A stretch of DNA of 42,353 bases from Chloroflexota bacterium (GTDB lineage: Bacteria; Chloroflexota; UBA11872), in contig JAPPNP010000024.1 of assembly GCA_028873795.1 (NCBI GenBank), positions 1 through 42,353 of the forward strand. The letters are read 5' to 3'. The notes beneath the pieces are model-generated. The model did no database searches, was not told the DNA's origin, and saw only the letters and a program-made list of their open reading frames with translations. Made by a program: the position numbers and the translations under genes. Shown here piece by piece: positions 14,607 to 19,180 of this stretch. Each line of letters begins with the position of its first letter. Position 1 is the stretch's first letter.

Positions 14607-14682
14607 ACTCAAGGATCTCCCCTCGGGATAGGCGGGGCGGCGGCGCACGACTCGCTGCTACGCTTGCGTCCCTGTCGTGAAT

Positions 14683-14697
14683 AGGAGCCGGTACGTG
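14683..14697 (+). promoter_or_regulatory. Shine-Dalgarno deciding the lysC start
   Basis: AGGAG (14683-14687), 7 nt, then GTG at 14695. This is far better placed than for the alternative upstream GTG at 14677, whose codon precedes the AGGAG. Confidence 0.8.
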
Positions 14698-15927
14698 GAA
14701 ACCCTGGTCTGTAAGTTCGGCGGCACCTCCGTGGCGACGCGTGAGCGCATCGCCGCCGTGGCCGAACGCATCGCCGACGCCGCTGCGGGCGGCGATCGCC
14801 TGGCCGTCGTCGTCTCCGCGCGGGGTGACGCCACCGATCGACTCATCGAAGAGGCGGAGCACACGGCTTCGCGGCCCAACCCCCGCGAGCTGGACATGCT
14901 GATGTCCACCGGCGAAACGGCCTCCGCCGCCCTGGTGGCCATGGCCGTCAGCGCCCACGGTCCCGAGGCCGTGGCGCTCAGTGGGATCCAGGCGGGGGTC
15001 GCCACCGACGGCGTCTATGGCCGCGGCCGCATCGAGCGGCTGGATCCCACCCGGGTGCGGCAGGAGCTGGACGCGGGCCGGATTCCGATCGTCGCCGGGT
15101 TTCAGGGGCTTGGGCCGGACGGACACATGGTCACCTTGGGCCGCGGCGCTTCCGACACCACCGCCGTTGCGCTGGCCGCGGCCCTGCGCGCCGACCGCTG
15201 CGAGATATACACCGACGTCGAGGGTGTCTACACCGCCGACCCGCGGTGCGTGCCGCTCGCGCACAAGCTCGACGCCATCGGCTATGGCGAGATGCTGGAG
15301 ATGGCGCAACTCGGCGCAAAGGTCATGCAGCATCGCTCCGTAGGTATCGCCCAACGCTTCCGTCTCCCGGTCGTGGTACGTTCCAGTTTCACGGATACAC
15401 CGGGGACGTCCATGATGTCGGCCGAAGCGGTTGAGATTGAGAGCGTGGCGCTTGTGCGCGGCGTGGCCCACGACTCCGACGTAGCGCGTATCACGGTTCG
15501 GGGGGTGCGCGACCGACCGGGCCTGGCGCACAGCATCTTCCAGCCCCTGGCCGATCAGGGCATCAACATTGACGTCATTGTCCAGAACGTCTCCGACGCC
15601 GGGACGACGGATATCTCATTCACGGTCAGCAAGGCGGATATGGCCACGGCCGTCGACCTGGTGCGGCCGATCGCCGCGGAGATCGGGGCGGGCGAGGTAT
15701 CGGCCGACGGCAGCCTGGGGAAGGTCGGGATCGTGGGCGTGGGAATTCAAAGCACGCCCGGCATCGCCGCCCGCGCATTTGGCGCGCTGGCCGATGGCGG
15801 CATCAACATCCTGGGCATCACAACCAGCGAAATTCGCATCACCTGCCTCGTCGACGAAGCCGAGGTCGAGAACGCCGCGCGCACGCTCCACACGGCGTTT
15901 GGGCTGGACGCGGACGCGGCGCAGTGA
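14695..15927 (+). CDS. lysC: Aspartate kinase
   Basis: About 410 residues. It phosphorylates aspartate, the committed step toward lysine, threonine, methionine and diaminopimelate. The kinase core starts at once ('VCKFGGTSVATRERI', residues 5-19), followed by 'VVVSARGDATDRLI', 'DMLMSTGETASAALVAM', 'GFQGLGPDGHMVTLGRGASD', 'CEIYTDVEGVYTADPR' and 'MLEMAQLGAKVMQHRSV'. Two ACT regulatory domains follow ('ITVRGVRDRPGLAHSIFQPL', about 262-335, and 'IVGVGIQSTPGIAARAFGAL', about 343-405). This architecture predicts feedback inhibition by lysine and/or threonine. Start by Shine-Dalgarno, see the separate entry. I looked for and did not find a lysine riboswitch in the 119-nt leader. Confidence 0.96.
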   Translation: METLVCKFGGTSVATRERIAAVAERIADAAAGGDRLAVVVSARGDATDRLIEEAEHTASRPNPRELDMLMSTGETASAALVAMAVSAHGPEAVALSGIQAGVATDGVYGRGRIERLDPTRVRQELDAGRIPIVAGFQGLGPDGHMVTLGRGASDTTAVALAAALRADRCEIYTDVEGVYTADPRCVPLAHKLDAIGYGEMLEMAQLGAKVMQHRSVGIAQRFRLPVVVRSSFTDTPGTSMMSAEAVEIESVALVRGVAHDSDVARITVRGVRDRPGLAHSIFQPLADQGINIDVIVQNVSDAGTTDISFTVSKADMATAVDLVRPIAAEIGAGEVSADGSLGKVGIVGVGIQSTPGIAARAFGALADGGINILGITTSEIRITCLVDEAEVENAARTLHTAFGLDADAAQ

Positions 15928-16019
15928 GGCGTGGCCTACACAGCCGCTCAAGGGGTCGTTGGTAAACTCGGGCCGACTCGCACCAGAGACGGCGCGGACG
16001 CTTACGGGACAGGCTCGAT

Positions 16020-16538
16020 ATGGTTGAAATGATGGTTGACAGCGTGCGCGTCAACCTGGTCAGCCCGAGCCGGGTAGTGGTGCTCAAGGAGTGCGACGGG
16101 GCACGATATCTGGCCATCATGATCGGCACCGCCGAGGCCGATGCCATCGCCGTCAAACTGCAAGACCGGAAGGTCCAGCGGCCGCTCACGCACGATCTGC
16201 TGCGCTCGGTGGTCGACACCGTCGGCGCCGGCGTCCAGCACGTGTCCATCACCAAGATGGTCGACCAGATCTACTACGCCAACATTGCCATGACGTTCAA
16301 CGGCCGCCAGCTCGAGGTTGACTGCCGGCCCAGCGATGCCATTGCGCTCGCGGTGCGCGTCAGCGTGCCAATCCTTGTCGACGAGGACGTTCTTGGGCAG
16401 GCCGGGTTCGAGCCCGACCAAGAGCAGGATGACGCCGAGCCCTCGGACGGCGACGCGGAACCCGTGTCGGAGGAGAAGCTTGAGGTCTTCCGCAAATTCA
16501 TCGATCAACTCGACCTCGACGACTTCGGCCGGTCGTAG
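16020..16538 (+). CDS. Bifunctional nuclease family protein (BFN/DUF151)
   Basis: 172 residues. The DUF151 core is clear: 'VRVNLVSPSRVVVLKECDG', 'RYLAIMIGTAEADAIAVKLQ', 'RPLTHDLLRSVVDTVGAGVQ', 'YYANIAMTFNGRQLEVDCRP' and 'SDAIALAVRVSVPILVDEDV'. An acidic tail (about residues 128-148) follows, and it ends with a helical segment 'LEVFRKFIDQLDLDDFGRS', reminiscent of the C-terminal clamp seen in actinobacterial and chloroflexal members. Plant BFN1-type relatives have DNase/RNase activity, but bacterial functions are poorly defined. The ATG at 16020 is behind GGGACAGG. It is transcribed in line with lysC, possibly from its own promoter in the 92-nt gap. Confidence 0.9.
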   Translation: MVEMMVDSVRVNLVSPSRVVVLKECDGARYLAIMIGTAEADAIAVKLQDRKVQRPLTHDLLRSVVDTVGAGVQHVSITKMVDQIYYANIAMTFNGRQLEVDCRPSDAIALAVRVSVPILVDEDVLGQAGFEPDQEQDDAEPSDGDAEPVSEEKLEVFRKFIDQLDLDDFGRS

Positions 16539-16600: not shown

Positions 16601-18895
16601 GTGCCACGGCCTTCGGTTCGGTGCCTCTCGCGCCCGGGAAAGATTGTGGCGGGCCTCGTGGTTGGCTTGCTCCTCGCGGCAGCGGACGGGACGCATCCCC
16701 CCGACGTCTTGGTGGACCTTGACGGAGTGCCCGCCGGCCCGGTCTCCGAGGTCGATTTCGAGTTCGGCACCAACGAACTGCATGACCTCTTCGTGGCCGG
16801 CGGCATCGATCGGGCCCGCGAGCTTGGTCTGGACAGCGTGCGGGTGTGGCTCGGCCACCGTTTCCTCTCGATTGCCGTGCGCGGAATCAGCGCCTCCGAT
16901 ATGGACTGGGAGTTCCTCTACGACTACGTCGCGCGCGTGCTGGCGGCCGGCGCGGAGCCGTTCGTGAGCTTCGTGGCGCCTCCGGCCTGGATACCCGCCG
17001 CGAGCGGCCGCCCGAGCTCGCAGCATGAGAGCGAGACGCTGGGGGCGGAGGGCGCCCAGGCCTACGGCGAGTACGTGGCGGAGGCTATTGCCAGGCTTCA
17101 CGCGCGCTTTGGTGATCAGGCGCTGGACTGGCGCTACGTCATCTGGAACGAGCCGAACAATCATCAAAACGCCGGAAGCACCTACGCCTGCGGGACAGGT
17201 GAGGCGTACGCGGTCCTATTCAACCAAGCGCGCGCGGCGACGGACGGTCGTTTCGGCTCGGGGCGGATCGCCCTCGGAGGGCCGTCGCTCGACGCCATCG
17301 ACTCCGGCGCCACGCCCGGCGCGGACGGTCAGCCGATCTGTGGCGCCCAGCCCGACCTCGATTGGCAGAACTATCTGACAAGTGTCGATGCGCGCGTCCC
17401 GTTCGATTTCATCACCTGGCACTGGTACGGGATGTTCGAGATTGGTCAGGCCAGTCCCCACGACACCCTCGTGAATCGGCTGGGGTGGTTCGAGCGTCGC
17501 GTTCGACTGATCACCGAGCTTGCCGCCGGCCGCCCCCACATCGTCGAGGAGATCAACTACAACGGCGATCTTGACGCCGATCCGCTCATCAACGCACAGG
17601 TCAACGCCGCCTTCCTCGCCTCGGCGACGCTGCGGGCCGTGCGACAGGGCGCGAGCGGGACCATGGTCTACAAGGGAACCCGTGGAACCGGCGGACTCAC
17701 GCCGCGCGGTGAGCCGGACTTCGGGCTCTGGGAAAGCGACCCGGAGGTTCCGACGACGCCGGCCTACCGCGCATTGCAACTCTTGCGTCGCGTGGTCGTG
17801 AACGGCGCCAGACTCGCGCACGTCGAGGTGCGGCCGGGCGATGTCGATGCCCTGGCGCTCACGCGTGGCGAGGATGCCGCGCTCATTCTGGTGAATCTGT
17901 CCGACCAGCAGCGCCAGGTCCGGGTTTCCGGACTTCCGGCCGGGCCGTCGGTACACGTCGACGACGTGGCGCCGTGGCGCACGGCATGGTTTGACGGCGC
18001 CTCGCTCACCCTCGAGCCGCATGCCGTCGCCGTCGTCACCCCCGCAGCCTCAACGCTCGCGACCCTGCCGCTCGTCGCCACGGGTGCATCCGCGTATGGC
18101 GGGACCGCCGGAGCGCCGAGTTGCGCCGGGTGCCATGGAGTGGCCGGCGACGGTGGACCTGCCCCGGCCATTCGCGATGTCGTTCGCGCGACCTTCGACG
18201 CCTCCCACGCAGCCTCCGCGCCAAGCGCCGGGTCGATTGCCGCATTTCTCGCCGGACTTGCCGATGCCACCCATGCGTTCGCCGGTGAGGTGATGGACGA
18301 GGACGGCATGCCGATCGAGGGCGCCATGGTCCTGGCCGACTTCGGCGCCCATGGTCAGGTGGCGTTCACCGACCGTGACGGGCGATTTCACCTGTCGGCG
18401 GCCCGAGGCGACGATGGGCCGTTTGCCGTCGCGCCTCAGCTCTTCGCGATTCATCCGGACTTCCGTGCGGCCGGCGTTCCGACGGCGCGAATGGCCTCCT
18501 CGCTGAGCCAGACGGATGTCGACTTCGAGTTGACGGGCAACGCAGATGAGGACGGTCGCCCGCTGCTTGCCAGCGCCCATGTCGTGCCCCACACCGGGCC
18601 GGGGGTGCCATCGGGCGCGTGGACGGTCGGCGTGGCCACCGCCGGCGAGGGACTGAGCGTGTGGGCGGTCCACCGGGCGAGCGGACGTGCGGTGCGCCTG
18701 CACGGGGTGGACGGGCATCCCTACGGCCTCTTCCACACGCGAATCGGCGTGCTGAATCCTCCCGCGAATGAGCGCCATTGGACATTCGTTGCCGTGGCGC
18801 CGGACGGCGCAGCCTCGAGATTCAACGACTTCAGGCCCGAAATCCCGCCGGTCGGCGAGCTCGGATCCGCCGCCGGCCTACGCCTCCCGGTGTAG
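16601..18895 (+). CDS. Secreted GH39-like glycosidase fused to a CxxCH motif and a carboxypeptidase-regulatory-like domain
   Basis: 764 residues. A basic, hydrophobic N terminus (KIVAGLVVGLLLAAADG) looks like a signal peptide, so export is likely. Residues 50-400 form a TIM-barrel glycosidase of the GH39/GH5 clan: 'YVIWNEPNNHQN' carries the acid/base Glu184, and 'PHIVEEINYNGD' offers the nucleophile (Glu316 or Glu317). A beta-sandwich follows (to about 490, 'LILVNLSDQQRQVRVSGLP'). Then comes 'GAPSCAGCHGVAGDGGPAPA', a cytochrome c heme motif (Cys508, Cys511, His512), with 'SAGSIAAFLAGLADA' as a possible closing helix but no clear axial Met. Residues about 561-605 resemble a carboxypeptidase-regulatory-like domain ('GEVMDEDGMPIEGAMVL', 'FTDRDGRFHLSA'). 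A C-terminal beta-rich region follows. The GTG start precedes the signal peptide. Substrate unknown. Confidence 0.8.
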   Translation: MPRPSVRCLSRPGKIVAGLVVGLLLAAADGTHPPDVLVDLDGVPAGPVSEVDFEFGTNELHDLFVAGGIDRARELGLDSVRVWLGHRFLSIAVRGISASDMDWEFLYDYVARVLAAGAEPFVSFVAPPAWIPAASGRPSSQHESETLGAEGAQAYGEYVAEAIARLHARFGDQALDWRYVIWNEPNNHQNAGSTYACGTGEAYAVLFNQARAATDGRFGSGRIALGGPSLDAIDSGATPGADGQPICGAQPDLDWQNYLTSVDARVPFDFITWHWYGMFEIGQASPHDTLVNRLGWFERRVRLITELAAGRPHIVEEINYNGDLDADPLINAQVNAAFLASATLRAVRQGASGTMVYKGTRGTGGLTPRGEPDFGLWESDPEVPTTPAYRALQLLRRVVVNGARLAHVEVRPGDVDALALTRGEDAALILVNLSDQQRQVRVSGLPAGPSVHVDDVAPWRTAWFDGASLTLEPHAVAVVTPAASTLATLPLVATGASAYGGTAGAPSCAGCHGVAGDGGPAPAIRDVVRATFDASHAASAPSAGSIAAFLAGLADATHAFAGEVMDEDGMPIEGAMVLADFGAHGQVAFTDRDGRFHLSAARGDDGPFAVAPQLFAIHPDFRAAGVPTARMASSLSQTDVDFELTGNADEDGRPLLASAHVVPHTGPGVPSGAWTVGVATAGEGLSVWAVHRASGRAVRLHGVDGHPYGLFHTRIGVLNPPANERHWTFVAVAPDGAASRFNDFRPEIPPVGELGSAAGLRLPV

Positions 18896-19180
18896 GGGAC
18901 CGCCCGGCGCGAACTGCCCGCCCTCGGGCAACGGCAGGCGCTGCACGCGCTGCCGGAAGGTGCCCTCGCCCTTGGTCAGCTCGTGGGGGTCCCATCCCTG
19001 CTTTTCCAATTCGGCCAGCACGTAGGCGCGGTCGAACTGCTCGCCGGTGGCTGGATCGCGCAACTCCTGGGACCAATGCAGCATGTGCTTCGGAAACTCG
19101 AAGTACCCGTCGCTCTCGCGCCGCGGCACGCGCAGCCGCAACTCGGAGACACGGATGTGGTGACGGGCGGAGTCAGACAT
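18878..19180 (-). CDS. Small hypothetical protein
   Basis: 100 residues, no membrane segment. The sequence is compositionally ordinary, with a mixed polar pattern ('IRVSELRLRVPRRES', 'FEFPKHMLHWSQELRD', 'FDRAYVLAELEKQGWDPHEL', 'FRQRVQRLPLPEGGQF'). I do not recognise a family. Its 3' end overlaps the end of the glycosidase gene by 18 nt in tail-to-tail orientation. It is the last minus-strand gene downstream of the methyltransferase at 19246. It is probably a real gene because codon composition and residue variety are gene-like, but its role is unknown. Confidence 0.6.
   Translation of the reverse strand: MSDSARHHIRVSELRLRVPRRESDGYFEFPKHMLHWSQELRDPATGEQFDRAYVLAELEKQGWDPHELTKGEGTFRQRVQRLPLPEGGQFAPGGPLHREA

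Follow-up and report, generated by a model that had tools for sequence, protein, structure and literature searches.

An apparently exported glycosidase of the Chloroflexota carries within the same chain a shortened class I cytochrome c domain, the heme-attachment motif of which is kept across two genera. The source genome is a Chloroflexota assembly of 89 contigs totalling 3.18 Mb (GenBank GCA_028873795.1); the window, meaning the whole stretch of 42,353 nucleotides that was analysed, is positions 1 to 42,353 of contig JAPPNP010000024.1. The domain anatomy is well supported. On balance we lean towards reading the protein as an exported glycosidase of clan GH-A to which a heme c, probably with bis-His ligation, is tethered for electron exchange or redox sensing; functional coupling of the heme and the glycosidase is speculative. 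The parts are known and their combination seems to be new, since a GH-A hydrolase joined to a shortened, Met-less cytochrome c was not found in the partly covered literature searched. More generally, the open-access search returned no glycoside hydrolase fused to a cytochrome c, which at its partial coverage is weak evidence. Cytochrome domains have already been seen beside carbohydrate-active parts, namely binding modules and sugar dehydrogenases, settings in which electron transfer is evidently useful. Hydrolases need no electrons. A heme motif fixed across two genera in a hydrolase chain therefore raises a question: is the heme there for sensing, for wiring or for structure? The features of the gene, in window coordinates, are as follows.

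16601–18895 (+), whole gene: predicted exported GH-A glycosidase, mini cytochrome c, carboxypeptidase-regulatory-like and Ig-like protein of 764 amino acids
16601–16690 (+), N-terminal basic stretch and hydrophobic segment, residues 1–30: putative signal peptide or anchor
16700–17800 (+), predicted clan GH-A (beta/alpha)8 barrel, residues 34–400
17150–17152 (+), E184 in WNEP: predicted acid/base
17549–17551 (+), E317 in VEEIN: predicted nucleophile
17801–18046 (+), predicted beta-sandwich of the kind usual in GH-A retaining enzymes, residues 401–482
18056–18268 (+), putative shortened class I cytochrome c domain, residues 486–556
18122–18136 (+), CAGCH, probable heme-attachment motif, residues 508–512
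18206–18208 (+), H536: candidate for the distal heme ligand, the usual Met being absent
18269–18544 (+), carboxypeptidase-regulatory-like beta domain, about residues 557–648
18548–18826 (+), Ig-like beta domain, about residues 650–742

The open reading frame is a real gene. It was found exactly at the coordinates given in the preliminary description, with a GTG start, and ATG stands at the equivalent position in two close orthologues. Near-full-length orthologues occur in eight other genomes, so that tblastn finds the gene in nine members of a Chloroflexota family represented by 19 genomes. Identity to the window protein is 84% in two genomes and 44–48% in six, over nearly the whole length, and the domain order is common to the full-length orthologues of all nine. 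A profile search for the same domain order in Chloroflexota, which the preliminary description had proposed, returned these nine full-length copies from 400 genomes and nothing beyond them, and no relative of the fusion gene was found in the plasmid and viral collections searched. The near relatives are MAGs named Chloroflexi or Chloroflexota, some of them bearing the names of sponge data sets. The family is apparently marine, with several members from sponges to judge by these names. The orthologue in one genome (G001, L010:8239–8241) stops at a TAA 18 codons before the end of the window copy, so the last residues appear to be dispensable.

Pairwise dN/dS is 0.08–0.15 in the barrel, 0.18–0.54 in the cytochrome part and 0.13–0.34 in the tail. 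Because these values are below 1 throughout, every part is judged to be under purifying selection. Apart from the signal segment, the cytochrome part outside its motif is the least constrained and fastest-evolving folded portion of the chain. An exported chain had been claimed beforehand; the N-terminal hydrophobic segment, modelled as a helix at residues 12–30, is indeed present and similar in all orthologues, and secretion itself is predicted from it.

A phmmer search of the whole protein against the PDB gave no match, so profile searches were needed. Taken together, profile and model place residues 34–484 in the clan GH-A fold, as expected from the GH39-like barrel and beta-sandwich first noticed here. 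Against Pfam GH39 (PF01229, cut-off 26) the window copy scores 33.2 bits and four orthologues 30.9–34.7 bits. The full-chain model is of modest quality (mean pLDDT 61.8), with the sandwich strands at 403–479 at pLDDT of about 72–91. VIA-align comparisons with clan GH-A enzymes over residues 34–484 reach Z 24–27, the best being 26.6 with an rmsd of 3.4 over 354 residues, and these alignments extend through the sandwich to residue 484. Five PDB profile matches were obtained, all named beta-xylosidase (E 0.0008–0.005), with WNEP aligned to WNEP. The protein thus shares with GH39 beta-xylosidases and PslG the barrel and beta-sandwich, the WNEP acid/base motif and a Pfam GH39 score over the cut-off; Z is about 25 to the GH39 structures 5jvk, 4m29 and 2bfg and 23.8 to PslG (9g17). 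It differs from them in an identity of about 15–19% and in matching GH30 xylanases equally well. Because GH30, GH39, GH51 and GH79-type structures rank about equally in the fold search, all within 3 Z units, "clan GH-A, GH39-like" would be a safer name than GH39. We know of no heme domain in GH39 enzymes.

The two plausible catalytic glutamates named in the preliminary description, E184 and E316/E317, are both in place and invariant in all nine orthologues, as is H274. E184 follows model strand 178–181 and aligns with WNEPN of the GH39 beta-xylosidases 4ekj, 1px8 and 6uqj; E316 and E317 lie on strand 313–319, in the place of barrel strand 7. Two glutamates are therefore found after barrel strands 4 and 7, as in clan GH-A. 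Comparison with the xTExN motif of GH39 leads us to take E317 rather than E316 as the nucleophile. Glycosidase activity would follow from this arrangement. The invariant C197 and C247 may form a disulfide. Barrel identity between the two genera is about 60%, and outside the family a barrel profile found a single distant cellulase-like protein (G113).

Is the CxxCH downstream of the barrel the start of a true class I cytochrome c, as had been suggested? The answer appears to be yes for the N-terminal half of the domain, the homology of which we regard as secure from profile comparisons. G495 and Y499, the pair of the class I N-terminal helix, are invariant and precede C508, C511 and H512; these three, together with G513 and H536, are kept in all nine orthologues in a region only about 32–41% identical between genera. 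When a profile of the region was built from the nine orthologues, 145 distinct PDB sequences matched it at E up to 1 (best 2.3e-9); each of the 60 listed is either a cytochrome c or a protein that contains such a domain. Pfam Cytochrom_C (cut-off 21.3) gives 23.6 bits in two orthologues of the genus designated g2 and 17.1 bits, below the cut-off, in the window copy. A profile-profile comparison with six Met-type cytochromes of the phylum gave a probability of 97.5% over 35 columns, and a tail profile searched in the phylum matched the CxxCH region of many proteins, of which those examined are c-type cytochromes. In the window copy and two other orthologues (L010 and L011) there are 5 extra residues immediately before CxxCH. 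Homologues lacking CxxCH, which would have spoken against a redox role, were looked for, and the motif is present in nine of nine. Covalent heme at CAGCH is likely on these grounds.

The distal half of the domain is different. The preliminary description had remarked that no axial Met was evident, and this is borne out: among the nine orthologues no Met is conserved after residue 278, and in a multiple alignment with Met-type cytochromes the helix and Met segment (e.g. LYDYIRDRMPAGG in L096) are absent from the fusion protein, while the last helix (e.g. INLASFLSGW) aligns with their C-terminal helix. A "GMP" at window residues 565–576 was considered as the axial Met motif and rejected, as the orthologues have no Met there. 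The invariant histidines downstream of the motif are H536, which stands 24 residues beyond H512, and H618 in the next domain. Because the cytochrome domain has no invariant His besides H512 and H536, H536 is the most likely sixth, distal ligand, a His replacing Met; the aligners set it before the gap, not opposite the Met. The distal half falls outside the profile-method alignments and is covered by the multiple alignment only, and it is poorly modelled (pLDDT 22–45 in the full model, 39–62 in the tail model). Foldseek on the tail alone returned mostly immunoglobulin folds that covered only the C-terminal domain well, and no cytochrome for residues 486–556. Like CcoP, bc1 cytochrome c subunits, c4 and c5-like class I cytochromes, the domain has the G...Y helix, CxxCHG, AP.L after it and a C-terminal helix; unlike them it is about 70 residues long, with the Met segment deleted and an invariant His there. 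Since it has no conserved Met and lacks the Met segment of its Met-type relatives, we consider it a cytochrome c homologue with an altered distal side and not a standard class I member. The apparent change from Met to His in a shortened cytochrome would offer a small test case for how much of the cytochrome c fold is required for holding heme.

All 19 genomes of the family encode two Cytochrom_C_asm (CcmC/CcmF-type) proteins, and seven other proteins of the source genome score over the Pfam Cytochrom_C cut-off; heme c can therefore be made. In the mechanism that we propose, the N-terminal segment would carry the chain across the membrane and the Ccm machinery would attach heme at CAGCH, with the CxxCH His as proximal iron ligand and H536 most likely as the distal one, replacing the deleted Met loop. 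The barrel would cleave a glycoside bond by means of E184 and E317. More speculatively, the tethered heme might pass single electrons to or from a partner at the cell surface, such as a dehydrogenase or the respiratory chain; alternatively, it might sense redox state.

The main rival to a heme-bearing domain is one in which C508, C511, H512 and H536 belong to a former cytochrome that now binds zinc or some other metal and serves to clip barrel and tail together structurally. In its favour, none of the four residues varies, and deletion of the Met segment takes away part of the usual heme pocket. However, the surroundings of CxxCH match cytochromes c and nothing else among the PDB matches listed, G495 and Y499 of the class I helix are kept, the chain is predicted to be exported and its hosts have Ccm-type genes, and we consider the metal clip clearly the less likely, if a serious, possibility. 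Also doubtful, and somewhat more so, is a redox-coupled glycosidase, in which a bis-His heme in this minimal 70-residue cytochrome without a Met loop would control the cleavage of surface polysaccharide or be reduced in step with it. Slightly less probable again is a five-coordinate or weakly six-coordinate heme with a catalytic or sensory role (peroxide, O2 or NO), which would not be an electron carrier and would keep H536 in its pocket as a non-ligating residue. Loss of the Met opens the distal side, and chemistry of this sort would be well served by an invariant His beside an accessible heme, but no likeness to known peroxidase or sensor cytochromes was seen among the matches listed.

Returning to the tethered heme c that we prefer, the same family offers proteins for comparison. 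Glucose/sorbosone dehydrogenase (GSDH) proteins are present in all 19 genomes. Relatives carry cytochrome c-GSDH fusions with Met-type domains (G002 and G014), and similar cytochrome segments occur in two others (G003 and G004). The two fusions (L096:1534–4125 and L099:619–3066) are large exported proteins with an N-terminal Met-type cytochrome c domain and a GSDH domain; in L097 and L098 the cytochrome segment lies within an open reading frame that also matches GSDH. These fusions resemble the window protein in that they are exported and begin their CxxCH region in a closely similar way. They differ in that their cytochrome is N-terminal and keeps the Met segment, and it is joined to a dehydrogenase, an enzyme with an obvious use for a cytochrome acceptor. 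None of the three wholly readable GSDH genes of the source genome contains CxxCH. Comparable proteins with GSDH, cytochrome and CBM parts have been described in Teredinibacter (PMC12055684).

The CBM-cytochrome c proteins of the Cbp2D/Cbp2E type, with their X183 and X132 domains, are likewise carbohydrate-related and exported and have a small mono-heme class I domain (PMC8981238). Unlike the window protein, they combine it with a binding module and a YceI-like domain and have no glycosidase, and X183 has His/Met ligation through Met66, which is absent here. The X183 domain of Cbp2D from Cellvibrio japonicus reduces LPMOs (PMC8981238). Could the cytochrome domain of the fusion protein likewise be an electron donor to LPMOs, as proposed for Cbp2D (PMC8981238)? 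The domain profile does match the Cbp2D structure 7b21 (E 0.006, profile positions 11–56), but the AA10 LPMO family, the one family searched and with a control search that worked, has no member in any of the 19 genomes, and we hold this role to be very improbable. Weakest of all, and scarcely credible, is an ordinary glycosidase with a beta tail in which CxxCH is a chance or decayed motif, as the preliminary description had allowed: a single CxxCH can arise randomly and the Pfam cytochrome match of the window copy is under the cut-off, but only 0.001 occurrences are expected in the window protein by composition (13 of 20,000 shuffles contain one), the Cys and His residues are fixed while their codons change synonymously in copies about 32% identical here, and two orthologues exceed the Pfam cut-off. 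As to substrates, a study of reef sponges reports MAGs with an enrichment of glycosyl hydrolases that target sponge tissue, coral mucus and algae (PMC8163846), which suggests that this enzyme may act on such materials as well.

Beyond the cytochrome part, the tail model (mean pLDDT 73.4) has two beta-sandwich domains. The regulatory-like domain claimed for the first of these stands as a resemblance at residues 561–600, within the first modelled beta-sandwich. PF13620 scores of 20–28.5 bits fall under the curated cut-off of 32.3 in every orthologue scanned, so that membership of the carboxypeptidase regulatory-like family is not claimed. The C-terminal domain, mostly at pLDDT 80–90, aligns with an Ig-like adhesin domain at Z 8.3 (rmsd 2.4 over 75 residues), a weak level that may mean a shared arrangement only. 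In the phylum, the matches of the tail profile besides the nine span about 30–50 residues or else the beta part at 74–125, and none gives the full tail. One candidate for a cytochrome joined to a beta part (G018, L067, positions 10–99) proved to be a Met-type cytochrome with other domains.

In both genera the fusion gene lies between a bifunctional-nuclease gene, which follows lysC, and a small conserved gene without a known family. The slot, after window 14677–16538, is the same, and the orientation relative to lysC and the bifunctional-nuclease gene is opposite. It is in g2 that the fusion gene is reversed with respect to these neighbours, and there it directly follows a Gfo/Idh/MocA-type oxidoreductase gene (PF01408), 5 bases apart (L014:4898–5902, L012:4946–5953 and L017:4898–5902). 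No redox-partner gene consistently adjoins it across the loci examined. About half of the genomes lack the fusion gene yet retain its neighbours. Identity of lysC between genera is 64–65%, near the barrel's value. This distribution would fit simple vertical inheritance in which the gene was inverted locally once and lost several times; a conceivable alternative is that it was gained independently at this slot. A gap of about 1.2 kb separates the neighbours in five of the six g2 genomes examined that are without the fusion gene, which is room for the oxidoreductase gene. The small gene at window 18878–19180 (-) encodes 100 amino acids, is 52–61% identical across genera and has no Pfam family. 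Except in L013, where the contig breaks off, it is present in every genome examined at the locus, and it shares 18 bases with the fusion gene where their 3' ends overlap.
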